DNA of 64,000 nucleotides, from contig CAIIXF020000008.1 in assembly GCA_903813345.2 (NCBI GenBank), positions 34,868,867 to 34,932,866 of the forward strand. Reading direction: 5' to 3'. The DNA comes from Owenia fusiformis (lineage: Eukaryota; Annelida; Polychaeta; Sabellida; Oweniidae). Positions 36,389 through 62,286 of the stretch are shown here, one piece after another. A model generated the notes under the pieces. That model was not told the origin of the DNA. It saw only the letters and a list, made by a program, of their open reading frames with translations, and ran no database searches. The position numbers were made by a program, and so were the translations under genes. Positions within the stretch are counted from its first letter, which is position 1; each line of letters opens with the position of its first letter.

Positions 36389-39300
36389 ATGGGTCTGTGT
36401 AAGTGTCCGAAGAAGAAAGTCACAAGTCTATTTTGTTTTGAACATAGAGTTAATGTATGTGAACACTGCCTTGTGTCGAATCACCCGAAGGTATGTTTTT
36501 GAATTTTTTATTTTCATACAGTTGAGTTTGATCTATGTTTTTAGGCTGGTATTCAGGTAGAAAGCAACTTACTTTTTCAACCATTGGAATACATGTAAAT
36601 TTGGCAAAGTTCAAATCATAATTTCTCAAATCCCAGTCCATCCTGCATCCATTCAGATCATGTAAACTCTGTTAAGCATGATAAAAGGCAAGAAGTTTAG
36701 TTAGAAATAAAAGAGTTATCTCATGAATGGGACCCTTACATAGCTCCTAAAAGGTAGAAGACACTAAATGGTGTAACACTATAAGCTGAATTTTGTCCAC
36801 ATAGAGCATGTGCACAATACTTAAGACATGTAAAATTGAACTGTCAAAAGAACTGAAATATACTTACCAGCTCGTCTTTTCCGGAAGTTATGATACGTTA
36901 TGGTGTAACTACGGTAATTAATTTTAAAATATTGAAAAAATCACAAAATACAAGTTCTGAGGTATATATCGCCATTTTTAAGCGAATTAGCCCATACTAT
37001 GACTATATATTCGCACCCCCATATACAGATATATATAAACTTCATCTTCACAATAAATTGAGCTTCTTTCAAATTTCCATTTTTTGAGATAAGTGCCATT
37101 TTCTTACAATTCAAGCCGTAAAAATAGTTGGAAAGTGCTTCCCAGTTGAGGTTAATGGCTTTTATACTTACATTAATGTATGGAGCACTTAAAATGTACT
37201 TAGAATCGTATAAATAGCTCTATTCTGTGAGATTTATTTTTGTTTTTATTTTTATATTTTTCTCACCTCATAATTGAAGAGCTCCGCTGTCGATTTACAT
37301 TCAGTTACACTTATTTCCTTGAAAATTCGCCATGATTGGAACAAATGATGGTTGGTTTATGTTTTATTCATTTAGTTTGTATTTGAATCTAGCTACTTAA
37401 ACACAAAACATGTCTTCATGTTATGCTAAAGAGCAAAGATCGCGAATTCTAGGTGAAGCCAATTATTTTGCACAAGTCATATCCTGATTGCATCATAGTT
37501 ACTTTGTACTAGTGTTGTCGCGATTAATCGATACATCGCGATATACATCGCCAAAGCTGATTCTGGCGATGCATCGATGTCTGAAACAAAACATCGATGT
37601 TTTTAAAAAAAAGTCATTTGCTAAAAATCACCCTTTCTTATCTTATTTTGACGCAAATCGCTTAAATTTCTCATGTCTTATTTCATTTCCCAATGTTTTC
37701 TGATATTATTTCGCTTTAAAACTGTTTTAGCTAGTCGAAATGAACCATTAATCTAAGAAAAATTACTTTACTTTCATTTCACCGTTACTAGAAGTTCCCG
37801 GATGAACCAGCGTTCTGTATTTTAGTGCATTAGCGTTCGGTATTTCAGTGCACTTTTCTCGGACTTTTTCTCGATGTACATCGCGATGTGCATCGATGTT
37901 TACTACTGAAAATTGCCGATGCATCGATGTACGATTATGGCACATCGCGACAACACTACTTTGTACTAGTCACATCCTGATTGCATCAGCCAATTCACGT
38001 GATTTACAGTTTACACATGGTTTCAATATACATGTTATACTACTTCCGGGTAGGGTAGTGTTTTTTATACTTTAAAAATGAAGCCATTTCGATCAGTTTT
38101 TATAATCCTTGGTAGAACTGAAAGGTATTACAATACATATTTAAATTAATACACATGAGTGTATTTGATGAACTCTCAAAAAATAAAACCCACAATAACA
38201 CCCTATGCAGACAGAGCCTGTGGGAAATATTGGGTGGGGAGCAAATGAGCGGAGGGTGCGGAGCTAACGGTCATTTTTGAATTTAAATTTGGAATATTTC
38301 TGGAACTAAGCCGTTTTGGGACTTCAAATATACCAAGATATGTGTATTTTACACCAAATATCAATACAATTGTGCAAATAGTAGCGCAATTCATTCTATA
38401 GCGACGCAGTGTGCCCTAAACCTTTCCCAGACCTATATATTTTGAAATTATCCTTTTAATACGGAGCCCCCAGCATTCATAAAAAATGGTGTTCAAGGTA
38501 CACTATCTATACAAATTATTTTTGCATCTTGGAAGCCAGGCAGTATCTGTGTGATTTTATAAAAATTCGGAAATGTTCTTCAGATATGAGCCCCCTCTAA
38601 ATATTGGGTGCGGAGCAGCTCCATAAACGTAGCTCCGCACCCAATATTTAGAGGGGGCTCATATCTGAAGAACATTTCCGAATTTTTATAAAATCACACA
38701 GATACTGCCTGGCTTCCAAGATGCAAAAATAATTTGCATGGGTAGTGTATCTTGAACACCATTTTTTATGAATGCTGGGGACGCAGTATTAAAAGGATAG
38801 TCTCAAAATATATAGGTCTGGGAAATGTTTAAGGCATACTGCGTCGCTATAAAATGAATTGCACTACTATTTTCACAATTTTATTGATATTTGGTGTCAA
38901 ATACACATATCTTGGTATATTTGAAGTCCCAAAACGGCTTAGTTTCAGAAATACCCCAATTTTAAATTCAAAAATGACCGTTAGCTCCGCACCCTCCGCT
39001 CATTTGCGCCGCACCCAATATTTCCCACAGGCTCTGTCTGCATAGGGTGAATAATATCTTTTTTATTCACAATTTCATGTCATTAATGTTTCTAACAAGT
39101 CACCTCTTTCTCTCTTTTCTTTATTTTTGTCAACAGTCAAAATCGGAATTTAAAACTTGGTTTCTTTACAAGCTCTGCTTCTGTAAATACTAAATAACAA
39201 GAAAAATGTTAAACCTTACATCCTACACTTATTTGATATGAAATAGGCGATCATTGATATCATTTTTGTGCTGTTAAGTGTGGATCTTTTAATTTTTTAG

Positions 39301-42300
39301 TCAAACTTGATCGCTGATCTCTGTCGATGTGACGTCACGCATTAAGTATGCACGCATGGACAGTACAATACATAAGGCAATATGGCGTCTTAGGCCTATA
39401 CATGAGCCAGAATGGAGGTCTGCAAGTTGAAATGAATATGTTTGTTTATGCATCAATCGATCACACATATAATCCAGACAATCTTTCAAATCATATACTT
39501 AACATTGTAATGGATTTATTTATTTTGTGAGCTAACCTTCACTTTAATTTTCATTGGTGAAGCAATGATTTTACCTAAAATGAGTCCCTGTCTTTGCATA
39601 GTGATATTTAAAAATCGAGAAGCAAAACCTATGTTGAATATACTGTGTATTGATGAAGTTTATATATAGCCTAGGGGAACTCAAAAATATTGTTATTATA
39701 TCGGCAAATTCGCTCGAAAATGGGTGTACACCCTAGAAATTGAATGTTGTTGATTTTTTCAATATTTTAAAATTAATTACCGTAGTTACACCATAATGTA
39801 TCATAACTTCCGGTAGAGGCGAGCTGGTGAGTATTTTCTATTATTTTGACAGTTCAATTTTACATGTCTTTAGTATTGTGCACATGCTCTATGTGGACAA
39901 AATTCAGCTTATAGTGTTACACCATTTAGTGTCTTCTACCTTTTAGGAGCCATGTAAGGGTCCCATTCATGAGATAACTCTTTTATTTCTAACTAAACTT
40001 CTTGCCTTTTATCATGCTTAACAGAGAGTAGTCCTATTCAAAAACTTCCTGTTCGGTTATATGGTGAAAAAAATATCCCACGAACGAAAAAAGATTTTGC
40101 TACATTTATAAGCGAGCATTGATTTCTGAGCCTGTAAAAAGCATGTAGGACCTGATTACCCCATTGATTTACTGAGACCGCCAAAAATATAGTTCAATTT
40201 TTTGGTTCAAAATTATAATCTCTCAGCGGTCCCTGACACTCCTACTAGCTATTACCAAACATTAATTGTCAATACATGTACAAATATACGTGTCATACAT
40301 CTACAAAGTAGCAAACTAGTGTTTTAAGTACTACCCTCAGTCAGAATTCATATGTGACTTGTTCAGATTGTCTTGGCAAGATGAAATAATATACATTAGT
40401 TGAGTTCGTTATGACCTCTACCCACATATAGTGGGGGGGGGGCTGATGATGGGAAGTTCTACCATCGAATCGAGGCCTGTATGAAGAGTTTAGATGGTTA
40501 TCGCTGAAAAAAATCTTATAGTATTATGATTCATTTCACTAATAAAAGCGATGTCCCGTGATCATTTCAGCCCATTTTACTGTTTTATTGCATCTGTAAA
40601 ACTCCAAAAATAAGAAATCAGGAGACCATTGTGCAATAATATAGAAAAGTTAATTCATATTGTACATGAATGGCATTTGTATATTTCAGATTATTTCGTT
40701 TTTTTGTGCAATGAAGCCTGTGCCTTCTTGTAATTTGCAGAATTTCAGCCATGTTATCTTTTTGAAAATACTATGGCTCTGAGAAGCATCAAAATATAAA
40801 AGGCCACACACTTTAAAGCCAACTAGAAGCAATCCAAGATAAATAAATGTCATTTATGTACAATATATGTAAAAATATATTTTTCCATATATTGTTGCAT
40901 AATGATCTTTTGATTTCATGTTTTCTAGATTTTACTGACGCAATAAAACAGTGCAATGGGCTGTAGTCTGTATCCAATAGATGGAATATCTTGAGAATTC
41001 GGTCTATTGATCACCTGGAATTGATCATCTTGTCAATTGATCATCATGTCAATGATAAGGACTATTCAGTGCATAATAATATATTTCAATCCCAAAGTTT
41101 AACATATGTGGTCTAAAGTCTGAATATTTTTATTCCAAATTTCAATGTATTTCTAACCATTTATGCATATGAATTAAATTTTATACTGACTATCTTTAGC
41201 TTCAATTCAACTGTTATCCCCTTTAAATTATATTTACCAAAATAAATGTCTCCAAGGCTCAATACCAGCATCTAATGCATGATACATTTCTGTTTGTGTT
41301 AAATTTTGTAGGGGTCATCTGTGCCAGGTTTGTTTATTGTGGTTTTAAATAGGTGCAAAATTCTCATTTTTTCCCAATAATCGCAAAGCTTTTGCTTCAT
41401 TTGTGCATTCTATCCTTGAGATAAGAATCTTTTGGGCATCTACATATATAGGCAATCCATTTCAGAAGGATTACTTTATTTAATTTGAAAAACTACAGCT
41501 TATTTATTATGTATCTAGACTTAAATCATAGGTGTAGCGCTCGATACGCTGGGTAAGCACAGGCGTATCAGATACAAGCAAATTTCAAAATTTCAAATTT
41601 CAGACCCCCCTAAACGCTCATTTTTGCTTCGCTCAACTCATGTTCCCGTGGTGGCGTATTACTGAGAAATGTAGCGGTACGCCCATGTTAGTGAACAATG
41701 GATGCCAGCACATAGACTTTGTTGCGTCAACCATATGAGCACTCAGCACACAATATCTTAAGAGATATTAAATTAACAGTAAAATGGACTCGCTTCCTCA
41801 TAAGGTCCAGAAGTTTTGATACGCAATTTGCACAATTGTTTAAGATAGTCTGTACCATTGTATCTTGTCATTTCAATGCATAGTTCAGTCATATTAGAAC
41901 TGGCTCCAGGATAGTGACTATAGTCCAGTTTGTACATTGTGTAAAAGAGTCTGTACCAGTGCATAGTTCAGTCATATTTGAACTGGCTCCAGGATAGTGA
42001 CTATAGTCCAGTTTGTACATTGTGTAAAAAGAGTCTGTACCATTGTATCTTGTCATTTCAGTGCATAGTTCAATCATATTTGAACTGGCTCCAGGATAGT
42101 GACTATAGTCCAGTTTGTACATTGTGTAAAAGAGTCTGTACCATTGTATTTTGTCATTTCGGTGCATAGTTCAGTCATATTTGAACTGGCTCCAGGATAG
42201 TGACTATAGTCCAGTTTGTACATTATGTAAAAGAGTTTGTACCATTGTATCTTGTCATTTCAGTGCATAGTTCAGTCATATTTGAACTGGCTCCAGGATA

Positions 42301-45300
42301 GTGACAATAGTCCAGTTTGTACATTGTGTAAAACAGTCTACCATTGTATCTTGTTATTTCAGTGCATAGTTCAATCATATTTGAACTGGCTCCAGGATAG
42401 TGACTATAGTCCAGTTTGTACATTGTGTAAAACAGTCTACCATTGTATCTTGTTATTTCAGTGCATAGTTCAATCATATTTGAACTGGTTCCAGGATAGT
42501 GACTATAGTCCAGTTTGTACATTGTGTAAAAAGAGTCTGTACCATTGTATCTTGTCATTTCAGTGCATAGTTCAATCATATTTGAACTGGCTCCAGGATA
42601 GTGACTATAGTCCAGTTTGTACATTATGTAAAACAGTCTACCATTGTATCTTGTTATTTCAGTGCATAGTTCAGTCATATTTGAACTGGCTCCAGGATAG
42701 TGACTATAGTCCAGTTTGTACATTATGTAAACAACAGCTGAGCAATGAAGAGATGGGCCAATGTGTCAGACTTATATGTTATGGTAAGTCAGTTTTCATT
42801 AACATTGTTTGGACACATTAATTTGAGGGAAAAAAAGCAGATATACTTTTTTCATTACACAAACTGTATTTTAGGATGCCCCATAGCACAACCAATTGTC
42901 TGTAAAGAGTTTCTAATCTCTGCCAGTAGGTGGACTTACTCCATACACTATGTCAATTACATCAATGAAATATAAAAATAAAGTTCAGACCACCCTGGCC
43001 AAAAATTCTTCCAAAAACATGCAGTTTTCACCATTTTGAGCACTTTTTAATCTGTGGCTTAAAATTCCAAAGTGGAACCCCCTGGTATATTTTAAACTGA
43101 ATCCCAACTCCTTATCAAAAGATGGCTACGGGCCTGCTAGCCCTATAATTCAATAATGCAGCCATTATAATTACAGTATTCTATATTTTCAGATGTCCTA
43201 CATTGGAAATGTATTGATAGATACGCGAGACAGCTTCCGCCAAATACTGCTCCTGCAGGCTACTGCTGTCCAAATTGTAAAACCGGCATCTTCCCACCAC
43301 CAAATATGGTGTCTCCTGTAGCAGATGCGCTGAAATCGGTCTTGTCACAAGTCAACTGGGCCCGAGCTGGACTAGGCTTACCACTTGTGAGTATTATTTT
43401 GTTTGAAATAAGATAAAGTTTCAGAAATGTTTAGTTCCAAATCTCTGAAATGATGTTTATGATGGGGTATTGAGATTTAGTATGACTATTAATCACATAT
43501 AATTGCATTAAATGCTTTGGGATTTTCATATTACCTCAAAATTGTCATTGCGGTTACTATAAAAAAAGATGCCTTCCTCTTTGATTATTTAGTTTCATCT
43601 GTATGTATTGTAGACCCCTTGAGGGTTGCAATGGTGTTGAATGTAATCTTCCAGCCTAATAAAATGATTAAAAAGGGTAACATGTAATCTGTAATTTTTG
43701 TAAAGCAGTTGCCATCATCATGGCTTGCAATTGAAGCCTAGTTTCTCAAAACTGTGAAAAATTGGCTAAAATGAGGGGAGTGTGGTTGCACTCAATGTAG
43801 TGAATGCCCCCCCCCCCCTCCTTGCAGACACCCATGCTTATCATGCATGCAGCAGAAACTATAGTTTATATCTAGGAGTTATACTTACATTCTTTACATT
43901 AAACTATTTTGTGATATCTGTTTCAGATTGATGAACCCCCAGAACAACAATCAGCCCCAGCGCCATCTACAAATGATAGCCTGATTATCACAACCAGTCA
44001 CAGTAGCGCCTCCTATAGTACACAACAACAATACAGTCCTCCAGCCCAGACCCAGTTCAACCCACCACCCCAATATAGCTCCAGTAGTGCCCCCTATCTA
44101 GCCCAGAACACACCACACATGACTGCCCAACACAGCAGTATAAACATAGGGGATGTTGCCCCACATGTAAGGGGATCAGATAAGCTAGGTACGTTTGCTA
44201 ATTATAATACAGGGTGATCACTAAGTAGTGACACCAGGTCTCTCATTTTTACAAATTTTTAAACAATCTCTCTAATTTTGGCACACACTAGTGGGCATGC
44301 AATTATGAGTAAACAACTTTTAAAATCTGTTTTTAAACATACACATTTTAATTTTACATAAACTCACAATTGCATTTTTAAGGCATGTTGAAAATATAAG
44401 CAAGATTCCTTAAAATTTGACATAATGAGAGACCTAGTGTCATTACTTATTGATCACCCTGTATGGCTAATGTATCAAAATGGCCACTTTTATCATTGAG
44501 AGTATGTATGATCATAGTAATAGACTATAGGTTTTGTAAAGAGTTTGATTGTCTGTTTTAATGTGTCAGTTATACTTCAGTTGATTTGGTTTGTTTGAAA
44601 GCTAAGGCCTAGTTAAGGTATTTTTAATTCAACAAATCTTTTAATCAAATTAAAATGTGCCATGTTGCAAAAATAGCCAAAATCCCAAATTCACATATAA
44701 AAGATAAATAAACATTTACAAAAAGCAATCTGTGCAAATATAAATACTAATATTTCTATAGCACATATTTCCTGTATTTTCTTAAAGGAACAAAATGCGT
44801 AAATGAAGTCTCACTTTTGATCTTCAGAGTATTTCCAGTGGATTAATAAGTACCAGATCTTTCATTTGACACCAAAAACAGCTCAAACATATCACATCAG
44901 AGTTGACACTAGATCATGAAAAAATATTTTCAATATATCAATTTATATATTTCAAGTTTTTAGCAATGATAGTTAGAAACCCATACCTCTCTATCGTTTC
45001 AAAAAATTTACCCAACGTATCGGTCTCTGTTAATTTATGGCATCCATACTTTTTGGAAAGGTAACACTTTGAGGTTCAATTTTCTGCCGGATGCCCTCGC
45101 AAACTCTCATTGGTTGCTCTGTATTGTAGCATTCTGTTGCCATGGTTACGCATCTTTAGACATCTTACCTTGGAATCTTAAATCATTTGTAGCTTTGTCA
45201 TTACTTAGTCTATAGGGATGATATTGGTATCAAATTGAACCTTATTAAATTCACTAAATGTTCACGATGTTCAATTATGCAAATGAGCTAATTTGCATAA

Positions 45301-48300
45301 TGTGTGACGTCATCAATCTATTTTTGGTTCAGAATTTTCCAGTATAGCAGCATATCTTGTAGAACTGAGGTCGTATGGCAGAATTTCTGCAAAAGTTTGC
45401 CCTTTCTTCTTCGAGTAGAAGGTATAAACAAGACAAAAATGAAAACGGATTCAATATTGAATCAGTATTGACCGAGTTATTCAGTTTTTAAGGCAGCTAC
45501 CAAGAACGTCATTATTTGACAATTATCTCAATAGAGACATTACCTTGAAAACGAAAGGTTTGATAACTTTGTTGTTATTTGGTCCACAGAGGTGATATTG
45601 GTATCAAATTAAGCTTAAGCAAATGTTCCATATGACTATGATATTTAATTATGCAAATTAGCTCATTTGCATAAATAAATGTATTTTCTTTGTTCAATTT
45701 TCGCCAGTTTTTAAACTGAAGAGTTTCTGCATATTTTATCCTTTCTTTTATTAGTGGAAGGTAAAAGCAATTTAAAATTAAGACAGATTTGAATTTGGAT
45801 CAGCATTAATCAAGTTAATAAGCAGTTTAGACGACTTTTGTTTAAACATCATTGTTTGAAAATTATAGATTAAATATCAGAATAACAAAATGAAAAATTA
45901 CTAGTTGCACCAGTTTTATTACAATAACTGTTATTAAAATACATGCTCTTTTAATCTGAAATTTGAAAAGAAATTGCTTTTTACAGAATGTCTATGATTA
46001 TATAATTATTATATTATGTGATACAGTCTCTATGATAATATTGTCCACATAGTACGACCATAAAGTCCATCTATCAACAGCTAAATATAATGTGTATCTT
46101 AAGAGGTGTAAAAACCTCTATTATCAATATGAAACATGATAGTCTAATGTTACATAACAGCATTTAAGGTTGGCGTCAACTAATTCCTTTGAATGTTTAA
46201 ATATTAACTCGAGAATATACTAAAACATGTACCGGTACTTCTTAAATATATTACTCATGTTATCTGATTTCAATGCATACATAGTGTTTAACATATAGAG
46301 TGTTTTGGATGAATCATATTCATGCTAGATTTGCTGATTCATTTTCATCTTCACTTTCATTTACAGAGTTCAGGCAATCTACATTGTCACATCCGCAGGC
46401 AGGAATGCAGGTTATCTGTTTCTTTATGCACCCACAACCTCCAGTAGAGCACTTTGTTTTGCAGGAGCATGTAGTAAGCTCAATGCAAGCCTTTGGAATA
46501 GGTGGCAATGATGTCCATAACGGCTTTAGGATATTAGTTGTACCTGACTCAAGGAACCAACCACCAGTGTCTTGTGCAGGTTCAACATCTATCAAAACTC
46601 TGTCTGCTTGTGTCCATATCCTTGCCTGATAGTCGGCACGGAGTATATGAAATCCCAGTGCATCTGATGTCGGGGGCATTGCCTCTAAACTTTTCTTTGC
46701 TTTTGTGAAGATATGAAGTCTTGCCTTGTCAACATCTTCAAAAGTAGTGCCGTAAAGACAACAGACATATTTCTCTAGATTGGTCACATCATAAGATTTT
46801 CGCCCAAGGCCATTGAGTAGTTTGGGGTTTTTCAAAAATACCTTCCAGCAGGTTGATTTGCTGTGGCCCTTGAATGATGACACAGAATCACATCCTGTGA
46901 ATGCGTGAAACCCCAAAATTGCTGATATGGTGTCCTCATTTAGACTTCCTACAATTTCATGGATGGGATAGTATTTCTGTGTTTTGCTGGTACCAGCTTT
47001 CATCCAGACTTCTGTATTGGGCTTAAAGAAGGCTATTAATAGCAACAAAACATCAGTGTCTTTACATACTATTATGAATCTCTTAAGCCCATTTTCAACA
47101 GCATCCAAACTATGAAGAACAATTCGTGTGTCTGCTTCTTCGTGATTGCAGTTACTAAAGGGGACATGTTCTCTTACACTGGAGTGTGCACTCTCTAACC
47201 CTCCACTCACTACAAGTTCTTTAGAGCTTGGTAATTGCTGTGCTCTTTCAAGTAACCGTATCGATAAGAATCTGGCAAGATCTGACTTGTTTTCATTATG
47301 AGATATGTAGTTCTGCCAGGAATTAGGCATAGGTATTTCAGGTGAATCTATTTTCTTTCTGATTGGTATAGTCTTGGAGGTTCGTCTCTTTCTAGTAGTT
47401 GACTTGATGCTTTCATGCCTGTACACATCAAATACAACATCAATTCTTCTTGTCTCTGGCCTGTTAAAATGGGAAAGCACAACATTTGAGAAGATGTCTC
47501 CATACTGCCCAAATGTTTTACATGTTTCCTGTTTTCCCAATGCATGGACAACTGCGAATCCATCTATGATGACACACGATCCTTCTTCTGATGAGGGGAG
47601 TGAAGGAGGGATGTTTATGCCTTTTGTGATTGCACCCAGTATATCAGACTTCATTGTAGTATTCATGTCACCTCTAGCATTTGTCAGTGATTGTGGAAAT
47701 GGGAATAATTCATGTCTTAAGATAGTATTCATCTCAACTTCTCTTCCTGCACTTGATGCAATGAGAAGTCGCTGCAACAGCTTTCTGTCAGCTTTAATGA
47801 CTTTTTGTTTATTTGCATCACCTGAAGTGATTTTTGTGTTGAACATCGATGCAAAGGTTTTGCTATTGTGCTTTTGGATTCTCTCGTGAAATTTTTTCTC
47901 ACGCTCTACCAGTCTCTCTTTTACGTTTTTTATGAGTGCTGTTTTCCCCCTCTCATTTGCTGTTAGAAGGTCACGTTCAACATCCAATGGGGCTACATCT
48001 TTTGTTGAAAGACTTATCAGGTCATACTCGCCGTCTTGATTCGGAGCTACATTCAGTTGAAATATATTAAAAACTTTCATTTGATCCTTCAGTTTTGAAA
48101 CATCATCATTATCACGTTTGATGCTTGATCTAACATCATCATTCCTTGAAAATCCTCCCTCGTTCTGATTATGTTTGATTCCTAACATTTCTTTTGTCAT
48201 TTCAAGAATTTGTGATCTTTGGGACCATGTTACGCAGAACCGGTCTAGAGCTTGCTTGTTCTGTGTAATGCCAATTATGCCCCCTTGGCCTGATTTTGTC

Positions 48301-51300
48301 ATTTTATTCACCCATTCAGTCCCATGGTCTGCAGCTACCTGGTTGAATTTCCCCTGACTAAACTTAACAGCAAAGTTCCCATTCATAAATTCCTGGAACA
48401 CTTCATAAGCTGTATCTGCGAGATTCATCATATCATTCAGGTACACTGCTCCAAATCGAGCATAGTTTGTGTGATCGTAGATGGTTAACCAGGGAAGCAT
48501 TGCTGAAAATGATTCCAAGTGCAATTTCCAATTGCCTTCCCTCTCAGCACGGATGAAATTCATCAGGATTTCAACCATGTCAATGTAAATTTTCCAAAAT
48601 TTATAGTTTGGGTTCTCTTCATGGGCATGGTCGAAATCCATGATTAATTTCTTGTATCTATCATTTGTTTTGGTTGCCTCTATGAGTTTTTTGACTGATT
48701 CTTGAATTTGTTCCTCATCTTTGTCTTGGAAACCATTGACTACCTCCTGTGCTGATGATAAAATTCCATCATCGATTCTTTTATCATTTTCCTTTGCCCA
48801 CTCATCAAGGTAATCAAGGTGTAGGCTTGTGAGTGCTTCATACGCCAGAAGATGGCCTCTAACTGCTCGATAATAGGCTTTGCCCTGCATGATATTTGGT
48901 ATGATATTTTCAGAATAAACACCAGTCTCAGTCCACAGCTCCTCCAGTCCCGAGTTCTCCATTTGTTGGCCAATACATTTCAAAAAATTAAAACAAACAT
49001 GTAGACCTCCGAACCTTGTGATGACATTCTTGTATGCTATAGGATTTGCCCATTTCAACAAAGTTGTCTTTGAATATAAGGGTTGGTCACCTGTGATTAC
49101 AGTGAAACTTTGTTCAAGGGCAGTTGATGTTGATAGGAACCGATTCATTACAGTCGTGAGGGTTTCATCATCGTCTGCATGGGCTTTAATGATAGGATAC
49201 ATACCTATTGTTGAAACTGGGGGGTTATCTTCACAGAGAATGACATTAAATGGCTTCCAGGTTGGGACATTAATTTTGTCTTTGTCCAGCCATCTTGTTA
49301 GGGACCATGCAGAATTAATGGCATGGGCCCGCTCACTTTCCTCTGCACATCCACGCTCAAACCATTCTAGGTTCGCTTTGTAATTTTCGGGTGGTTCTTT
49401 TTTGTAGCTTCCATTGATTGGCTTGTCTAGTCTGTGAAAATCATCTAAAGATTCCTTTGGTAATGTCATCTTTCTACCGTGTTTAGTAAGATCAAGGTCA
49501 GTCTGTTTAGGAGGTCCCCTCTGCCACGCAACCATTTGTGTACAGTGAAATGTGTTCTTCCCATCTATAGTAGAGTCTTGTACATCTACATTGTCACATG
49601 AGTAATGTGTAAGTCTTCCCTTTACAAGCTGATCTGGTACAAACACGCCATTCCTCTCATCGGTTCTTTTAATTATTGCATTTGCAATTGATGTATCAAT
49701 CCTTTTGATTGTATTTGATCCAACACATGCATTTGCTTTGTTGAACATCTCTACTAATTGTGTTGATCTGGTACAGTGGTGCAAGCTTAAGCCTAAGCCC
49801 ACATGTTTAGGTGTAAGCTTTTTTCCTTTGGATACAGTGAAAATTATATCTTGTGCTATACTGAGGATTTGCCGTCTACGTTCCTTGTTGTTTTCTTCTT
49901 CATTATCAACTGCATCTGTCCCACCACAGAGTATATTGAGAAAAAGATAAAGTGTATCTGGTACTATTTTAGCGATGTTTTCTTCATTCAAATCACCCCA
50001 GCTTGGATGCCCATCTGTCCTCTCCAATTCAGCTCTTATTGTCAGAGCAATGTGAGCTATGCTTCCCAATGTTACACCTTCAGGCTTTTGATAAGTTGGT
50101 ACACTTCCCTCATGGTCTTCATCTGTTGTGTCAGACTCACTACTCAGTCCTTCATTTGTGTCACCTTTCTTCCATGCTTTAAGAAGGACCTCTCCTGCCA
50201 TGTCTGTTGGATATATGTATGTGTTTAGACCTTTATCTGTTATAAAACTGGCTACATCACCCAATGCTTTCCGAAGGAACTCATAGAATGAGTTTCGATT
50301 CAATTCTTTTGAGGGAACTTTGACATTCTCATTTTCATCATTACATACATTTGAATATTCATCATATACATCTTTCAGAACATATGTTTTCCCTTGTAAC
50401 AACCCATTCCTTACATTTTTACACACATTCATCAGTGACCTTTTGATATTATCATCTTCCTGACTTATACCTGACCCACTCAATTGTAACTTAACCTTTT
50501 CTATTCTTCTTTTGAAACTGATATAGCAGGGTAGATGGTATTGTATATCTGCAGCAATTAGATCAGTGGAATTTGCTAACTTTGCAGACATTTCCTCACA
50601 TAACTTTGAGTAATCAATAATCTTTTGAGATACATCAAACGACATTACCTTGTGCTTCTTTCTGGTGCTCTCTTTTTGACAAAATACACACTTCTCTTTA
50701 TCAAATTTTAATATTGACTTACTTTGCCTCGTTACTACTTTAGCTTTCTTAGCCGAGCTTTTTTTATCCATTTTAAACCGACCCATTTTATATTTTGATG
50801 TAAATGTGCTGTAGCAAGATTTATGCTTGTAAAGTGTACATTTAACCCATCCTTCTTTTGACATATTATTGTACATCTCTCTGACATTTACATATCGTTC
50901 ATCGTTCATTGTTTGCCTTTGATTGAGAACCTCAACAACACGTGCTTTCCCAGCAGCAGACAGTTTTTGTAAGTTTCTATAAGGTCCTTCACATATGAAG
51001 CAAGTCTGTTTTTTAAGAAACGCATTGTTCCACTTTCTTTTTCTTGATGTGACCGATGATTTAACTGGACTTTCATCATCCATAGTTGCTTCTGCAAGTG
51101 AGAACACGTATTGATATACTAGGTTTGCTCATTTTGATTAACACATTTGAATCCAGCTTTTAATTTACCATTTACTGAATAAAGTCATAATTATCCTTGT
51201 TTATGTTAAACCATGGATTTAATGCAAATAGTTTAACATATTTAATATAACTTAATCATCTAAACAGATTTCTAAAATGTTCAACATGTTCAAAATACCA

Positions 51301-54300
51301 AACATTATTATTACAAGATAGAAAATGAAATGAAAGCCTTTTTAAAATGACTATACATAAAAGCTTATTTGTTACTTTTAATTTCATCACACTTAAATGA
51401 AAAATATGGGACACATGGTTTATGCACCTCATTCTCATCAAAATATGGAATAGTGCTCTATTCTAATTATTTACCTTATACACATAGTATCTGAATTGAG
51501 AATAGCATTTCTGATTTCTCTAGAGAGTAAGATGATGTACTGCCATTTCAACTGCAACTATTTCAGTGTGCTCAACATCCTGGTCTTCATTCATAATCTG
51601 CTTAGTTTTACCTAGCATTAGAGAACAACTTTTAAGGTTATTTGTTTGTCATGATAATTTCCATTTAAGATCTCAGAACTCTCACTTTATTTATAAAAAC
51701 ACATTAACACCCTGTTAAAAGGTTATTGATGTAGCTATTTAAAACATCATGTGTCACACTATTTATAGCTTCAACTATGGACATACAGTATAGACAAGTA
51801 ACTGATGGATACTTGATCGAAATGAAAATATCATAATATTATTAGGTTACTCACTTATGTAATACAACATTGAAGGAAGGACCATGACTCAATGGACATC
51901 ATACATCTTTGACTCCCTCCTTGAATATCAACAGTTCAACATAACTGACCTGAAACCTGATATTCAATTTCTAAGTTTCTGCATGATAAAGAAGTATGCA
52001 TGACATAATGTAGAATCAATTCATTTAATTAAGTTGTACTTTTAATTTACTCAGATATTAATTTTAGATTATAAATCTCAGTTTGGTTGGGAATGCTTAA
52101 CTATAGCCCATACAAGTAATAATCTACAGTATTTAATGAAATAAAGGAATTTAGTATTGTATTTACCTCTAGCTTCCATAAACATATATCTAAAAACTAG
52201 TGTACCATCCATACTAGGCATAGATTAGAAAAAGACTAGGTGACATAACTCAAATAGTAAATCTGGATATCAATAAGTTACCTCCTGATTTGAAGAGGTA
52301 ATATTCACTCTTCAATATTCATGAACCACCAAATGTAGTTTTGGCCAATCCTGCTGTCTCTCTTGTTTGATATCAATTGAAACATGCATGTATGTCAAAA
52401 TAGCTAATTTAAATTATCCCTTTTATTTCTATGCTTCAATGACAGTTAACATTATGTACTTGATGAGCTTATATTCAGTTTGGTTAATTATCGAATGGAT
52501 GCTTGTGTCTTTAATATACAAGATAGAAATGACCATTAGAGTAATAGTCACAATTACAAATACATTTCTACAAAATGACATTCAGTTCCATGGAAAAAAA
52601 TAAAGACTTTCCTTAGATTTCTTCTGTGTTTCAAACAATAAGATTGGTGCAAGTACATACAAGCATTTTGGTTATTTTATATTCTATTTATGATTGTTTA
52701 ATAATGAGGCTTAATGATAACAACAACCTCAAAATCTGATCTGTCAAAACTGATCCAAACTGTTTTCACTTTTACCTTACCTTTTACTCATCAATTAAAA
52801 GAAAAACACATTGAAGAAATCCTGCCATTGCCTCACTTTTATAATTGAAATGCAGCCATAATGGGCCAAAAACCCAAAATAGACTGATGACATCACAATA
52901 TATACAAATTAGCTTATTTGCATAATTGAATATCATAATCATATGGAACATTTGATTAAGTTTAATTTGATACCAAAATCACCTCTATGGACCAAATAAT
53001 AACACAGTTATCAAACTTTTTATTTTCAAGGTGATGTCTCTATTGAGATGATTGTAAAATAATGGCATTTTTGGTAGCTGCCTCAAAAACTAAATAACTC
53101 TGTCAATACTGATCCAATATTGAATCCGTTTTCATTTTTGTCTTGATTATACCTTCTACTCAAAGAAGAAAGGGCAAAGTTTTGCAGAAATTCTGCCACA
53201 CGGCCTCAATTCTACAAGGTATGCTGCTATACTGGAAACTTCTGAACCAAAAATAGATTGATGACGTCACAGAATATGCAAATTAGCTCATTTGCATAAT
53301 TGAAAATCGTGAACATTTAGTGAATTTAATAAGGTTCAATTTGATACCAATATCATCCCTATAGACTAAGTAATGACAAAGCTACAAATGATTTAAGATT
53401 CCAAGGTAAGATGTCTAAAGATGCGTAACCATGGCAACAGAATGCTACAATACAGAGCAACCAATGAGAGTTTGCGAGGGCATCCGGCAGAAAATTGAAC
53501 CTCAAAGTGTTACCTTTCCAAAAAGTATGGATGCCATAAATTAACAGAGACCGATACGTTGGGTAAATTTTTTGAAACGATAGAGAGGTATGGGTTTCTA
53601 ACTATGAGAGATGGCATTGCTGTTTGCATTAATTTTCCATTCATTTTCGATAGGATTTTCAACCATACGCCATCTTTTTACCCAAGAGTTATTTAAAACA
53701 TACACCTTGTGAAAAATGGTAATTCATTTCTTTTGATCTCTGAAAGTTTTTATTATCATATTTGATTGAGTGTGTGAGTAACATGTCTCAAATAATATTT
53801 TGTCCTTTTTCCTTCAAAAATAGGCGCATTGCCTGTTTAATATTATAATTTACATACATATTTTCAGGGCCCAGAAAATTGTTTGATTCCAACACTAGGG
53901 GAGATGAGATATTGAATATGTCACATGACCATGACGAAGATAAATACAAGAGAAGATCAGCATTCCAATGGTTTTCCAGATGGTTCAGGTAACTACCTAT
54001 AGGTGGCTCAGACATCCACATTTTTTATCATCATAACAGCATATCAACATTTAGTCTAATATGTAATAACAAATATAATTCCATTATTTTTGTTTGACTC
54101 CCTCAAAACATATGTGATGTTGAGAAAAAATGTTTTGTATATTTCATTCCTACTGGATTCTTGTCATCACTCTTTGTTTGATTTTGAATGAAATGCCAAT
54201 TCCCTTGTCTTTTGCTGCATTTTATGCTCAAATTCAAGTGCTTTCTGTTTTGTGTTAATTCATTTGTATGTACAGTATAACCTGTCTAATCTGAACACCT

Positions 54301-54761
54301 CTGGGACAGGCCAAAGGTGTTCAGATTAGCAGGTGTTCACATTCCAAGGTTTTATTAACATGTAAATCAATGGGAGATTCCAAATTTGGGACTGAGAAAA
54401 GGTGTTCACATTGAGAGGGGTTTGGATTAGAAAGGTGTTCAGATATACAGGTTTCACTGTTGACTGAATAGTGAATGCCAGATGGTGTATTCTATGATTT
54501 CTCTCTTTCTACTTTTGCATTTAAAAATAAAATAAAACATAATCTGTGACCTTTTGTACTTTCAGCTCTAGAACTGGAGGCAAGCAAAAACAAGACCCCA
54601 ATGCATCAATGAAGAGAATTCTAGTGATTTTAATCTTAGCCGTCATAGCCTTCTTCACTTTAGTTATTATATTCACACGGGCGGGGCGTGCCTCTGCCGA
54701 CAGGGACCCCCTTTTAGACCCATTTGCTAATCCAAATATTCGAGTGAACTCTGAAGATTAG
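36389..54761 (+). CDS. ZFPL1: Zinc finger protein-like 1, Golgi membrane protein, six coding exons
   Basis: Exons are 36389-36490, 42663-42783, 43193-43386, 43927-44188, 53868-53988 and 54566-54761; all junctions are GT-AG and in phase, total 996 nt, 331 aa (vertebrate protein about 310). The protein starts [10 protein letters not shown], nearly identical to vertebrates. Residues 1-34 hold the first Cys/His cluster (B-box-like) and residues 35-115 the RING-like zinc finger, with conserved C-I-V-Q-S-Y-L, D-V-L-H-W-K-C and [16 protein letters not shown] precedes a Ser/Pro/Gln-rich linker (about 140-225). D-E-D-K-Y-K-R-R and one transmembrane segment at about 286-305 follow, ending in the conserved [14 protein letters not shown] tail. 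Known role: integral cis-Golgi membrane protein that binds GM130 (GOLGA2) and supports cis-Golgi assembly. Oddities: intron 1 ends in a tandem array of exon-2 fragments, and intron 4 hosts an 8.6-kb antisense transposon. Start chosen by homology and context (AAAATGGG). Confidence 0.96.
37510..37958. mobile_element. hAT-type MITE with 8-bp target duplication
   Basis: The ends TAGTGTTGTCGCGAT and its complement are inverted, a classic hAT-like terminus, and both are flanked by CTTTGTAC (37502-37509 and 37959-37966), an exact 8-bp duplication. The subterminal regions repeat CATCGATGT/ACATCGCGAT words many times. 449 bp, no transposase. Confidence 0.9.
38199..39049. mobile_element. 851-bp palindromic MITE with AATAA duplication
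   Basis: The two halves are near-perfect reverse complements meeting near 38620, with only a short non-palindromic core. Ends read CACCCTATGCAGACAGAG. An exact AATAA flanks both sides (38194-38198 and 39050-39054). A second copy starts at 63634. The short ORFs in both arms are by-products of the repeat, not genes. Confidence 0.88.
40027..41790. other. Remaining ZFPL1 intron 1 before the exon array
   Basis: AT-rich intron DNA with a G-tract at 40432-40442. I see no nested gene or clear element. Confidence 0.5.
41846..42662 (+). repeat. Tandem array of ZFPL1 intron-1 end plus exon-2 start (eight extra copies)
   Basis: Each unit holds about 30 bp of the intron end (CCATTGTATCTTGTCATTTCAG) followed by the first 69 nt of exon 2, encoding [23 protein letters not shown]. 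Exon-like starts are at 41877, 41960, 42062, 42163, 42264, 42363, 42462 and 42564, followed by the true exon at 42663; unit lengths are 83, 102, 101, 101, 99, 99, 102 and 99 bp. The acceptor AG is lost in the 41877 (CAA) and 42163 (CGG) copies and kept in the others. Copies from 42264 onward share the frame of exon 2 and are open through its end. Confidence 0.95.
42990..43140. mobile_element. Degenerate relative of the 198-bp G-tract MITE
   Basis: In ZFPL1 intron 2. It has CCCTGGCCAAAAATTCTT at the left, the shared CAGTTTTCACCATTTTGAGC block and GGCTACGGGCCTG at the right, all in inverse orientation to 11118-11315. Confidence 0.6.
44970..45805. repeat. Left terminal inverted repeat of the Academ-like transposon
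   Basis: It contains two direct modules about 370 bp apart, each with GATATTGGTATCAAATT (near 45220 and 45595), an AAATGTTC word and an octamer palindrome (45277-45298 and 45651-45672). The second module is more diverged from its partner in the right arm. Confidence 0.85.
45277..45298. promoter_or_regulatory. Inverted pair of ATGCAAAT octamers in the TIR
   Basis: ATGCAAAT and ATTTGCAT face each other across 6 bp. Equivalent sites are at 45651-45672, about 52901-52924 (one half mutated) and 53276-53297, so each TIR has two. ATGCAAAT is the canonical POU-domain (Oct) binding octamer. Function as a host-factor or transposase site is inference. Confidence 0.5.
46320..51083 (-). CDS. Academ-like transposase/XPG-type nuclease polyprotein, 1587 aa
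   Basis: A single uninterrupted ORF. I start it at the ATG at 51083 (M-D-D-E-S-P); the frame is open for eight codons further but only from a GTG, and a CTTGCAG acceptor-like site lies just upstream, so a 5' UTR intron is possible. N-terminal zinc-binding-type Cys/His pairs occur near residues 28-87 and 130-190 (C-F-I-C, C-V-F-C, H-L-P-C-Y). The central region has candidate DDE-core acids: S-C-D-N-V-D near 498, T-G-D-Q-P-L-Y near 664 and H-G-T-E-W near 922. The C-terminal ~400 residues look like a FEN1/XPG PIN-like nuclease: V-I-I-D-G-F near 1172, E-E-A-D-T-R near 1314, K-D-T-D-V-L-L-L near 1341 and T-G-C-D-S near 1398. The protein ends in a CXC (tesmin-type) cysteine cluster at about 1538-1573 and an acidic tail. 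All four acidic nuclease motifs are intact. The DDE assignment is my reading and less certain than the nuclease and CXC parts. Confidence 0.8.
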   Translation of the reverse strand: MDDESPVKSSVTSRKRKWNNAFLKKQTCFICEGPYRNLQKLSAAGKARVVEVLNQRQTMNDERYVNVREMYNNMSKEGWVKCTLYKHKSCYSTFTSKYKMGRFKMDKKSSAKKAKVVTRQSKSILKFDKEKCVFCQKESTRKKHKVMSFDVSQKIIDYSKLCEEMSAKLANSTDLIAADIQYHLPCYISFKRRIEKVKLQLSGSGISQEDDNIKRSLMNVCKNVRNGLLQGKTYVLKDVYDEYSNVCNDENENVKVPSKELNRNSFYEFLRKALGDVASFITDKGLNTYIYPTDMAGEVLLKAWKKGDTNEGLSSESDTTDEDHEGSVPTYQKPEGVTLGSIAHIALTIRAELERTDGHPSWGDLNEENIAKIVPDTLYLFLNILCGGTDAVDNEEENNKERRRQILSIAQDIIFTVSKGKKLTPKHVGLGLSLHHCTRSTQLVEMFNKANACVGSNTIKRIDTSIANAIIKRTDERNGVFVPDQLVKGRLTHYSCDNVDVQDSTIDGKNTFHCTQMVAWQRGPPKQTDLDLTKHGRKMTLPKESLDDFHRLDKPINGSYKKEPPENYKANLEWFERGCAEESERAHAINSAWSLTRWLDKDKINVPTWKPFNVILCEDNPPVSTIGMYPIIKAHADDDETLTTVMNRFLSTSTALEQSFTVITGDQPLYSKTTLLKWANPIAYKNVITRFGGLHVCFNFLKCIGQQMENSGLEELWTETGVYSENIIPNIMQGKAYYRAVRGHLLAYEALTSLHLDYLDEWAKENDKRIDDGILSSAQEVVNGFQDKDEEQIQESVKKLIEATKTNDRYKKLIMDFDHAHEENPNYKFWKIYIDMVEILMNFIRAEREGNWKLHLESFSAMLPWLTIYDHTNYARFGAVYLNDMMNLADTAYEVFQEFMNGNFAVKFSQGKFNQVAADHGTEWVNKMTKSGQGGIIGITQNKQALDRFCVTWSQRSQILEMTKEMLGIKHNQNEGGFSRNDDVRSSIKRDNDDVSKLKDQMKVFNIFQLNVAPNQDGEYDLISLSTKDVAPLDVERDLLTANERGKTALIKNVKERLVEREKKFHERIQKHNSKTFASMFNTKITSGDANKQKVIKADRKLLQRLLIASSAGREVEMNTILRHELFPFPQSLTNARGDMNTTMKSDILGAITKGINIPPSLPSSEEGSCVIIDGFAVVHALGKQETCKTFGQYGDIFSNVVLSHFNRPETRRIDVVFDVYRHESIKSTTRKRRTSKTIPIRKKIDSPEIPMPNSWQNYISHNENKSDLARFLSIRLLERAQQLPSSKELVVSGGLESAHSSVREHVPFSNCNHEEADTRIVLHSLDAVENGLKRFIIVCKDTDVLLLLIAFFKPNTEVWMKAGTSKTQKYYPIHEIVGSLNEDTISAILGFHAFTGCDSVSSFKGHSKSTCWKVFLKNPKLLNGLGRKSYDVTNLEKYVCCLYGTTFEDVDKARLHIFTKAKKSLEAMPPTSDALGFHILRADYQARIWTQADRVLIDVEPAQDTGGWFLESGTTNILKPLWTSLPPIPKACIELTTCSCKTKCSTGGCGCIKKQITCIPACGCDNVDCLNSVNESEDENESANLA
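52741..53604. repeat. Right terminal inverted repeat of the Academ-like transposon
   Basis: Reverse complement of 44970-45805, with the same two-module structure and GCATAATTGAAAATCGTGAAC near 53290. The outermost ~330 bp are nearly identical to the left arm, which argues for a recent insertion or for terminal homogenisation. Confidence 0.85.
54273..54459. mobile_element. Tigger/pogo-like MITE in ZFPL1 intron 5
   Basis: Ends CAGTATAACCTGT and ACAGGTTTCACTG are inverted. The inner sequence repeats GGTGTTCAGATTAG and AGGTGTTCACATT. The left flank is TA, the right TT. Related to 18697-19215. Confidence 0.65.
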
Positions 54762-54839: not shown

Positions 54840-56180
54840 ATATTGAACATGTTAGAAGTAGAACTTGAAACATGTTGTTAATGGAATACGGAACATGTCA
54901 AAGGCAGAACTTGGAACATGTCAAAGGCAGAACTTGGAACATGTCAAAGGTAGAACTTGGAACATGTCAAAGGCAGTACTTGGAACATGTCAAATGCAGA
55001 ACTTGGAACATGTCAAATGCAGAACTTGGAACATGTCAAAGTCAGAACTTGGAACATATCAAAAGGCAGATCTTACTTGGAACGTGTCTTAAGCAGTACT
55101 TGGAACATGTCAAAGGCAGAACTTGGAACATGTCAAAGGCAGAACTTGGAACGTGTCTTAAAGGCCCCATGTAAAGTTTAAACCACTTTGGCTAATATTG
55201 TAGTCTTACCCAATGTTATCAAAGTGTGATATGTGAAACTTTTTTTTTAAATTTCAAAAAGTGGTTTTTGATAGACTTTTTGTTCCAAAATTTGTGAATT
55301 TATTTAAAACCAACTTTTAGAGGTCACTCATATCTTCTAATTAGCCACAATTCATATCAATGCATAGCATTCATCCTCCCATGTTTTTTGCCGAAAAAAT
55401 TAAGAAAATCGGTTGATAAACAAGCGAGAAATGAACTTATCAGTGCATGAAAATGGTTCTGAGAAAAATGCATTTCAAAATTTTAGTTCTCATAGAAACC
55501 AATGGTACAATGATATCTAAAACATTATTTATTCTTCCTTTTAATTTGGTTAGACAATCAACATTGGTTTTTATGAAAGTCTAGCATATTTAGAAAAGAT
55601 TGACATCGAAAAAAAAAATTCAATTTTTTTCAAAAAGTTTTTGTTACCTTAGTGACATCACTAATGTTTCAAAATATTTTTGATAAGCTAAAACATTGGT
55701 GTAGCCCATTAAATATGGCATTTTATTATTGAAATAGCGTGTCTTTTGTTCAATCTTTACATTGGTGTTAAAAAGATAATCTTTTTGGAAATGCATTAAG
55801 AAATATTTGATGATTAAGAAATTTCAACTTTTTTTGAAAAATGGCGGGAAATTTGAATATTTGAGAAATGAAATGCTCACAACTTTTTTTTGAAATTTTT
55901 TTTTTGTTCAAAAATCTCTAAAATCACTTTTTAAGTCCTGACAAATAGTAAATGAATGAAAAAATAATATTTTCAAACTTTAGACGGGGACTTTAAGCAG
56001 AACTAGAAACATGTCAAATGCAGAAGTTGGAACATGTCAAAGGCAGAACTTGGAACATGTCTTAAGCAGAACTTGAAACATGTCAAATGCAGAAGTTGGA
56101 ACATGTCAAAGGCAGAGGTTGGAACATGTCAAAGGTAGAAATTTGAACATGTCAGTGGCAGAACTTTGAACATGTCAAGC
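54840..56180. repeat. 21-bp minisatellite downstream of ZFPL1 stop, split by a MITE
   Basis: The unit GGAACATGTCAAAGGCAGAACTT (about 21-23 bp, with variants CTTAAGCAG) is repeated about 15 times at 54840-55160 and about nine times at 55990-56180. The two blocks were one array before the insertion at 55162-55992. The array starts about 80 bp after the ZFPL1 stop and probably lies in its 3' UTR. The three overlapping ORFs here are repeat artefacts. Confidence 0.9.
55162..55992. mobile_element. 831-bp TTAA-flanked MITE inside the minisatellite
   Basis: The ends AGGCCCCATGTAAAGTTT and the complement of AGTCCCCGTCTAAAGTTT are inverted. TTAA flanks each side (55158-55161 and 55993-55996). The minisatellite unit variant CTTAAGCAG supplies the TTAA target. 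A piggyBac- or Kolobok-type non-autonomous element; no ORF. Confidence 0.85.
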
Positions 56181-60479: not shown

Positions 60480-62286
60480 ATTATGTTATGTTATTTTATT
60501 TACCATCTACAAGATGAGTACATATACATAAATATGTCACAAAAATAAATATACGAAAAATACTACAAGTTATATGTATGTTAGATGAGCAAAATTAATA
60601 TGCTCATATGTCAGAGCATGCTATTATTTACAAGGATTTAAGAAGGTAATCCCTTCTTTTGTGCATTTCATATATCGTGTCCAGCAATGGAAGCATCATT
60701 TCAGGATCATATTCGCTCCCTCCACCGAAAATGAAACATATGAATTCACAAAAGTTGTTGACTCCTAGTTTATATAATTCACTAAATAGATTGTATCTTA
60801 TATCTATATACGCTGGGCACAATAGTAAAAAATGCTGTACGTCTTCAGTGACATTTAAATTGCATAGTAAGCATACTCGTTCAGACATTGGTTGTCCGTA
60901 ATTAAATATCCTGTATGTTCCTGATATCATTTTCATTATAACTTTACATTGTGGTAAGCGTCTTGGAAAACGCCTGGCAACTTCCCACCATAAAAATGGT
61001 TTTAAAACAGTGAAACATCTCAAAATTGGTCTCAGTGTTGGATATAAGGAGCTAAGAACGAAAAAGCGTCTCATCTCAAACGACTTGACAACGTTCATGA
61101 CTTTTCTCTTCCAGACACATTTGAGTGGTGTCTTAGCAGTAGTTATCATATTCAAAACGTCCCCATGTAGGTCGTATTTCATTGTTGTTTCCCACATTGA
61201 GACCAATGGAGATTTACTTGAGCGATAGGTTCCAATGTGGATTATACTCAACAGTCGATAAATGCATACAATTTTATAAATACATTGTACCGGTAACGAT
61301 AAAACGAACCAGATGAACATAAGGCGATCTACATCGATTCGCGCTTGAACTGAAAGCCATCCGAGTGGTTTTATCGCCATCGGGTCAGGGGTATTTACTG
61401 GGAAGCTTTGTATTCTCTTGCCAATGGATCTATGTGCATCCTCCATAGACTCAATTTCGGTTATTGAATATTGCGTTACAGAGCTGCCATACGTCATTGT
61501 TGGGAAGCAAAAACTCCAGTATAACTTGGAAGCTAGCAGAGGATTTAAGCCTCCTACATTTGCTCCTAAACCAAGCAGAGAAAAGAATTTTCTTTTACTG
61601 CGTGAAATCAAATTTGATACATGCTCTGAGCTTTTGCCTAAAGGTATGCCAACATGCGTAGCAGATTTTTCTATTTTTAGAATATTCTCTCCTAATTTGC
61701 ATTCACAAAAAGCATTTTTGTTTCTACCAAACCTTAGCACTACACATTTTCCTGGATGAAACTCAAACCTCCACCTTTTACTATACATGTCAGCAATGCT
61801 CAACAGAGCATTTAGATTTTCTGGATTGTTTGCAATTAAGGCAATATCATCAGCGTATGCTGGACATGCTACAGACGTTTCACCAATTCTTACTCCTTTT
61901 GCCGAATCTACCAGTTGTTGCAAAAGGTCTGCTATAAAGAACTGGTAGAGAAACATAGAACATATCCCGCCCTGGTGAACACCTCTATTAACAGGAAAAG
62001 TATCCGATAAAATACAATCTACAAAAACCTTACATTTATACTTGTTATATGATTGATACAAGAGCCTCCAACATAAACCATTTATACCACAATTATATAA
62101 CTTATGGAACAGGCCTCGTATCCATGTACTGTCAAAGGCCTTTTTAATGTCCATTAAAGCCATAATTGTGCCATTTTCTTGATGAGATATGGCTTCTTGC
62201 ACTATTAGAGATGTTTGCAAGGATGAGCAACCTTTAATAGACGCACCTTGTAATTGCGGTATGCGACCTTGCAGTACACATATAAT
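60480..62286 (-). mobile_element. 5'-truncated non-LTR retrotransposon (LINE)
   Basis: On the minus strand the element enters at about 62286, inside the reverse transcriptase, and runs to a 3' end near 60480 with ATAACATAAC-type repeats. The endonuclease and ORF1 are missing, as usual after incomplete target-primed reverse transcription. The clade is not certain; a Jockey/I-like group is possible. Confidence 0.8.
60628..62286 (-). CDS. Reverse transcriptase C-terminal part, 5'-truncated LINE ORF2
   Basis: An open frame of about 552 codons from just after a stop at 62287-62289. Seen in order: L-Q-G-R and S-L-Q-T-S-L (finger region), motif A M-D-I-K-K-A-F-D, motif B H-Q-G-G-I-C-S, motif C A-Y-A-D-D-I-A-L, then thumb/connection, and near the C-terminus the zinc-knuckle C-L-L-C-N(x8)H-F-L-L-L-C. 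The catalytic Y-A-D-D is intact and there is no internal stop, so the truncation is fairly recent. It would not be mobile on its own because the endonuclease is missing. Confidence 0.88.
   Translation of the reverse strand: MICVLQGRIPQLQGASIKGCSSLQTSLIVQEAISHQENGTIMALMDIKKAFDSTWIRGLFHKLYNCGINGLCWRLLYQSYNKYKCKVFVDCILSDTFPVNRGVHQGGICSMFLYQFFIADLLQQLVDSAKGVRIGETSVACPAYADDIALIANNPENLNALLSIADMYSKRWRFEFHPGKCVVLRFGRNKNAFCECKLGENILKIEKSATHVGIPLGKSSEHVSNLISRSKRKFFSLLGLGANVGGLNPLLASKLYWSFCFPTMTYGSSVTQYSITEIESMEDAHRSIGKRIQSFPVNTPDPMAIKPLGWLSVQARIDVDRLMFIWFVLSLPVQCIYKIVCIYRLLSIIHIGTYRSSKSPLVSMWETTMKYDLHGDVLNMITTAKTPLKCVWKRKVMNVVKSFEMRRFFVLSSLYPTLRPILRCFTVLKPFLWWEVARRFPRRLPQCKVIMKMISGTYRIFNYGQPMSERVCLLCNLNVTEDVQHFLLLCPAYIDIRYNLFSELYKLGVNNFCEFICFIFGGGSEYDPEMMLPLLDTIYEMHKRRDYLLKSL

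Follow-up and report, generated by a model that had tools for sequence, protein, structure and literature searches.

We analysed a 64-kb stretch of the genome of the annelid Owenia fusiformis (contig C8, positions 34868867-34932866; hereafter the window, with coordinates counted from its first nucleotide), in which the start of one exon of a gene that we take to be ZFPL1, which encodes a Golgi protein, is repeated in tandem. The window has zero N, and the genome searched comprises 498 Mb in 525 contigs. The gene name rests on comparison with the N-terminus of human ZFPL1. The gene model has six exons on the + strand, whose splice sites are canonical and which together give an open coding sequence (CDS) of 331 codons:

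36389..36490, + strand: exon 1, coding part from the ATG; donor AAG/gtatgt
42663..42783, + strand: true exon 2, 121 nt; acceptor TTTCAG, donor ATG/gtaagt; its peptide ends in LICY
43193..43386, + strand: exon 3; open CDS
43927..44188, + strand: exon 4; open CDS
53868..53988, + strand: exon 5; open CDS
54566..54761, + strand: exon 6; hydrophobic, membrane-anchor-like segment and stop codon

Introns 1 and 2 measure 6,172 and 409 nt, respectively. A Pfam search with the spliced N-terminal sequence detected no family at the 0.001 level, and a longer version of the N-terminus gave weak PHD, RING and B-box matches, the best with an E-value of 0.026. We presume two zinc modules in the protein, one B-box-like and the other RING-like.

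Upstream of the true exon 2 at 42663, its first 69 nt are repeated eight more times, which makes nine copies in all. The upstream copies are as follows:

41877..41959, + strand: copy 1, unit of 83 bp; acceptor lost (TTTCAA), TTG>TAG stop in the exon part
41960..42061, + strand: copy 2, unit of 102 bp; preceding intron end mostly deleted, leaving a 14-nt spacer that ends in GTACCAG
42062..42162, + strand: copy 3, unit of 101 bp; TTTCAG intact, out of frame, with stops
42163..42263, + strand: copy 4, unit of 101 bp; acceptor lost (TTTCGG), 69 nt identical to the true exon
42264..42362, + strand: copy 5, unit of 99 bp; acceptor intact, in frame, open (133 additional residues)
42363..42461, + strand: copy 6, unit of 99 bp; acceptor intact, in frame, open (100 additional residues)
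42462..42563, + strand: copy 7, unit of 102 bp; acceptor intact, in frame, open (67 additional residues)
42564..42662, + strand: copy 8, unit of 99 bp; acceptor intact, in frame, open (33 additional residues)

The repeated unit is composed of the 69 nt of exon 2 and 30-33 nt of intron end, except for the single 14-nt spacer. Tandem Repeats Finder (TRF) gave a score of 1364, far above chance, for positions 41957-42731, with a period of 99 and 95% matches. In the 69-nt exon part, the upstream copies show 96-100% identity with the true exon. They vary at five of these sites, and the spacers vary too; two of the changes are synonymous and common to several copies, and a Y>N, an L>F and a stop occur in one copy each. 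The 69-nt part opens with a Cys codon and closes with a CxxC pair. TTTCAG is kept in five of the eight upstream copies (42062, 42264, 42363, 42462 and 42564). A genome-wide DNA search with exon 2, in which very common words and withheld stretches were skipped, returned nine matches, all inside the array, and no dispersed repeat or second copy of the gene was found. The search for decayed copies elsewhere in intron 1 yielded just a 12-nt match at 37841-37852 (E-value 0.78).

The preliminary description of this DNA had reported the tandem amplification of a splice acceptor with the start of an exon, four copies of which have coding potential, and our analyses bear this out. The copies at 42264, 42363, 42462 and 42564 have an intact TTTCAG, are in frame and meet no stop up to the donor after 42783, and by frame reading the announced gains of 133, 100, 67 and 33 residues are correct. 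Other details need amending. The exon part is indeed present in eight upstream copies, but the intron end accompanies only seven of them, being absent at 41960. The distal acceptors, described as lost, are so at 41877 (CAA) and 42163 (CGG) but not at 42062, where TTTCAG is intact. The split between 101-bp distal and 99/102-bp proximal units is found, but the division is not clean, as the distal copy at 41960 has a 102-bp unit. The greater age proposed for the distal copies finds no support: 42163 matches the true exon at all 69 positions, yet the proximal copy at 42462 differs from it at three sites. We therefore reject an age gradient from distal to proximal in the exon part.

We consider it very probable that the array is a minisatellite of the type called mirage, a passenger kept in intron 1, with exon definition choosing the acceptor at 42663. 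Mirages are known in the amphioxus genes for Adh3, the globins BflGb6 and BflGb9, troponin C and PGBD5, with units of ~10-160 bp (PMC3087553, PMC3902484). The BflGb6 mirage combines the 3' end of an intron with the 5' part of exon 2, in six and three units in the two haplotypes (Ebner et al. 2010, PMC3087553), and the architecture of the ZFPL1 array is the same. The duplications in lancelet PGBD5 are similar and less perfect (PMC3902484). Like the amphioxus mirages, the ZFPL1 array is made of minisatellite-like tandem copies spanning an intron-exon border, some of which keep their AG/GT signals, and which are partly homogenised. Acceptor-side and donor-side forms exist both in amphioxus and in the present genome, and several genes are affected in each. 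Thus, the ZFPL1 array displays a border-spanning unit, a true border intact at one end, partial retention of the signals, high identity between copies (95% over the array) and company in other genes. It differs from the amphioxus mirages by the gene, the annelid host, the eight extra copies and the four of them that continue the frame. Judging from sequence, it is probably a mirage, which adds a gene, and probably a phylum, to those in which this kind of element is known. Among the open-licence papers listed for the search terms used, we found no report of mirages outside cephalochordates, nor, among those listed for ZFPL1, any title on such an array.

Exon sequences are also repeated in tandem within genes in the case of mutually exclusive or tandem duplicated exons. 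The ZFPL1 copies are unlike those, since 69 of the 121 nt are copied and the donor is not, which leaves incomplete exons. The internal tandem repeats of human genes likewise represent minisatellite expansions that alter gene structure; they are compared between paralogs in segmental duplications (De Grassi & Ciccarelli 2009, PMC2812944), whereas in ZFPL1 a splice acceptor lies within the unit, which probably remains part of the intron. A further comparison is with the beta-globin constructs with duplicated 3' sites, in which, as in ZFPL1, 3' sites are arranged in tandem and the upstream one is followed by a partial exon (Reed & Maniatis 1986, as related in PMC9225289 and PMC5389562). Those constructs were engineered with two sites, while ZFPL1 naturally has six near-identical ones in a row, counting the true site.

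To put the array in context, we surveyed exon borders elsewhere in the same genome starting from the top-ranked exon matches in three families (30 kinase, 30 myosin and 25 CCT chaperonin, i.e. 85 central matches). Thirty-nine neighbouring matches in the same loci, five of them also central (C9:37977976, C9:37977687, C9:37977014, C4:17297858 and C4:17298796), and C8:21837681 brought the total to 120 distinct matches. Each match was compared, with 60 nt on each side, with its own surroundings. These units are hidden Markov model (HMM) matches rather than annotated exons and therefore miss some borders. The three families were not randomly chosen, and the highest-scoring kinase matches are long. 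A tandem copy across an exon border was detected in 10 of the 120 matches, eight clear and two marginal, distributed as 6/39 for CCT, 4/47 for myosin and 0/34 for kinase:

CCT theta (L076), acceptor side: eight extra copies, 83/89 bp
CCT beta (L081, exon at C11:134865-135017), acceptor side: three extra copies, 96 bp, all in frame and open
CCT delta (L082), acceptor side: one extra copy, 86 bp
Myosin (L055), acceptor side: one extra copy, 94 bp
Myosin (L049), acceptor side: four extra copies, 61 bp apart except for the most distal
CCT alpha (L071), donor side: one extra copy, 154 bp
CCT gamma (L070), donor side: 48-bp unit, 5.3 copies
CCT beta (L077), donor side: 28-bp unit, 16.6 copies; GGTGAGT four times
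Myosin (L043), donor side: marginal, with only 3-4 nt of exon in the unit
Myosin (L054), donor side: marginal, short and decayed

The self-matches of L021, L040, L057, L063 and L042 were excluded because the edge was not crossed or because they were inverted or very short. C8:21837681 showed no duplication, and C11:135225, which sits on the array of L081, was not counted separately. The CCT subunits were named by the top-ranking NCBIfam hits of short exon-encoded peptides, none of which reached its whole-protein cut-off. The CCT complex has eight subunits, which are essential in the organisms studied. On the basis of these sequence-derived names, five of the eight subunit genes (alpha, beta, gamma, delta and theta) carry a border duplication.

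Two further groups of matches came to light in the same searches. Twelve separate matches in a row to the same stretch of the myosin head (about positions 18-84) at C9:37986009-37994334 probably form a large cluster of mutually exclusive exons of a myosin gene. At C10:2256896-2257205, a single stretch of the kinase profile is matched twice by partial hits 178 bp apart, possibly an exon-fragment duplication.

The five acceptor-side arrays other than that of ZFPL1 contain 17 intact upstream acceptors, 14 of which would introduce a stop (eight in CCT theta, four in myosin L049, one in CCT delta and one in myosin L055); the other three, in CCT beta, lead into an open frame. Frame-breaking acceptors are therefore not generally removed. 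In CCT theta, all eight extra acceptors are intact and each meets a stop after 20 codons. As the CCT theta exon, when used as a DNA query against the genome, matched only itself and its own array, and as the subunit is expected to be essential, the acceptors of that array must be mostly ignored. By extension, the upstream acceptors of mirages are probably largely ignored; this argument, though indirect, is the strongest that we have for their silence.

How the true site could be selected is suggested by the dimensions of the gene. With flanking introns of 6,172 and 409 nt, exon 2 is expected to be defined as one unit, in which case the acceptor closest to the donor, which gives the 121-nt exon, would prevail over those giving exons of 220, 322, 421 and 520 nt. 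The whole array would then stay in intron 1. Carranza et al. (2022, PMC9225289) report from human data that long flanking introns favour the 5' and 3' sites nearest to each other across the exon; the preference switches at 200-250 nt, and under intron definition it falls on the upstream 3' site. In beta-globin substrates carrying the 3' site twice, with exon lengths of 14, 55 or 205 nt, splicing was very inefficient and went to the distal site only (PMC5389562). Transposed to this animal, the findings of both papers lead us to predict the use of 42663.

We next asked whether the open frame of the four proximal copies is meaningful, using shuffles of the spacers (27 nt before CAG), stop counts in six frames over four units, and counts of open versus intact copies. 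After shuffling, 63% of the spacers remain open; multiplied by the one-in-three chance of a length divisible by three, this gives ~0.21 for an open, frame-keeping unit. One minus-strand frame of the four units is also stop-free (0 stops in 132 codons), within a 180-residue open reading frame (ORF). The acceptor is intact in all four open copies and in one of the other four, an association with a chance of 0.071. Substitutions in the array are too few for a selection test (5 variable sites of 69). The proposal that selection had acted on the frame, or against the inclusion of frame-breaking exons, is thus not upheld, as neither shuffles nor counts are significant and 14 of 17 acceptors elsewhere persist although they break the frame. 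Recent homogenisation, the other possibility raised in the preliminary description, is compatible with the data. The in-frame state of the four ZFPL1 copies is best read as chance combined with homogenisation, and a function of the array need not be assumed. Pfam matches of the array ORF to DUF3039, DUF5071 and QSregVF_b were dismissed as spurious, the query being repetitive.

Several alternatives to a silent passenger were considered. It appears unlikely that the open arrays, those of ZFPL1 and CCT beta, are read through at a low level or in some tissues, offering extended isoforms of conserved proteins to selection. If this were true, minisatellites would continually supply raw material for longer proteins and new introns. 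Somewhat more doubtful still is the proposal of optional repeat exons, according to which the proximal acceptors are used, ZFPL1 isoforms gain 33 to 133 residues and selection keeps the frame. Four of the eight copies can be read in frame through to the true donor, with TTTCAG intact. The added residues would sit between the B-box-like and RING-like modules, and if our assignment of these is right, insertion of a whole unit would leave both formally complete. Nevertheless, an open, frame-keeping unit is no rarity by chance, most of the intact upstream acceptors in the other arrays bring stops, splicing is reportedly normal at the amphioxus mirages, and the exon-proximity rule points to 42663. 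As to the amphioxus transcripts, the PGBD5 paper states that the Adh and troponin C mirages give no aberrant mRNAs (PMC3902484).

We regard an assembly artefact, with the copy number resulting from collapse or expansion errors, as very improbable. Such arrays do have unstable copy numbers, and one haplotype of the BflGb6 mirage is reported to have been aberrantly assembled in the draft (Ebner et al.). However, the ZFPL1 copies differ at five of 69 exon sites and in their spacers and are therefore more than duplicates of a single unit, the window is without N, and similar arrays lie in unrelated genes of the same assembly. Least probable of all is a regulatory decoy, with splicing factors that bind to the upstream acceptors and so adjust the ZFPL1 mRNA level or slow splicing: five upstream copies do have intact acceptors, but the presence of comparable arrays in chaperonin and myosin genes, which are unrelated, suggests passengers.

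A number of observations weigh against the passenger reading that we favour. The last 24 nt of the six intact sites, 42663 included, vary at only one position, so the upstream acceptors appear as good as the true one, and we infer their silence. Two of the six acceptor-side arrays, those of ZFPL1 and CCT beta, are open, slightly above the estimate of 0.2 per array obtained for ZFPL1. Slippage would favour microhomology at breakpoints, and none was found at the founding breakpoints of the ZFPL1 array in ungapped comparisons (1587 of 2000 shuffles score as well). In classic experiments with duplicated sites, intron definition favours the upstream 3' site, as related in PMC9225289, and according to PMC5389562 the choice is influenced by how much exon follows the proximal site.

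The mirage-type array would have been founded by a tandem duplication of a segment spanning the border between intron 1 and exon 2, and would then have expanded and been homogenised. For the background of such events, direct tandem duplications (offsets of 20-500 nt, at least 75% identity) were sought around the 85 loci. They cover 8.4% of the flanking bases and 0.56% of the interiors of the exon matches, and they reach 4 of 170 match edges (5/170 within 15 nt), a low estimate because match edges often lie inside exons. Random flank positions were covered in 297 of 3,400 cases. A TRF version with periods of 40-300 gave 5.6% for flanks, 0.65% for interiors and 3/170 for edges. As duplications are no commoner at edges than around them, a mechanism aimed at borders need not be invoked. 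In a genome with frequent tandem duplications outside exons, some would run across an exon edge; purifying selection would clear the exon interiors, and borders would tolerate the copies.

Taken alone, the ZFPL1 array would be a curiosity; the wide occurrence of such arrays is the interesting part. Their recurrence at the borders of essential annelid genes suggests that mirages are not a peculiarity of cephalochordates. Acceptor-side arrays set up a natural competition among near-identical splice sites, up to nine in CCT theta, in which the spliceosome must choose the one joined to a complete exon. These loci therefore bear on the question of exon definition versus a 5'-to-3' search, and the arrays with frame-breaking copies could serve to gauge the cost of mis-selection.

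Other features of the window and the genome were recorded. Just 3' of the ZFPL1 stop codon are two minisatellites, at 54845-55162 and 55993-56178, which have a common 23-bp unit up to rotation; the first possibly lies within the 3' untranslated region. Intron 4 of ZFPL1 contains an unbroken ORF of 1602 codons on the opposite strand (46320-51128, - strand), with no Pfam match at 0.001, possibly coding for a protein of a mobile element. An Rfam search of the whole window gave no match. In the genome, a bantam-like microRNA locus was found at 53.2 bits (E-value 9.3e-8), under the curated cut-off of 61; bantam is not known to occur outside protostomes, and the locus suggests a protostome host. On the - strand of the window, a single open frame at 2302-3300 encodes a sulfotransferase domain, and a 552-codon ORF at 60628-62286 harbours an RVT_1 reverse transcriptase domain, as in an element resembling those without long terminal repeats.

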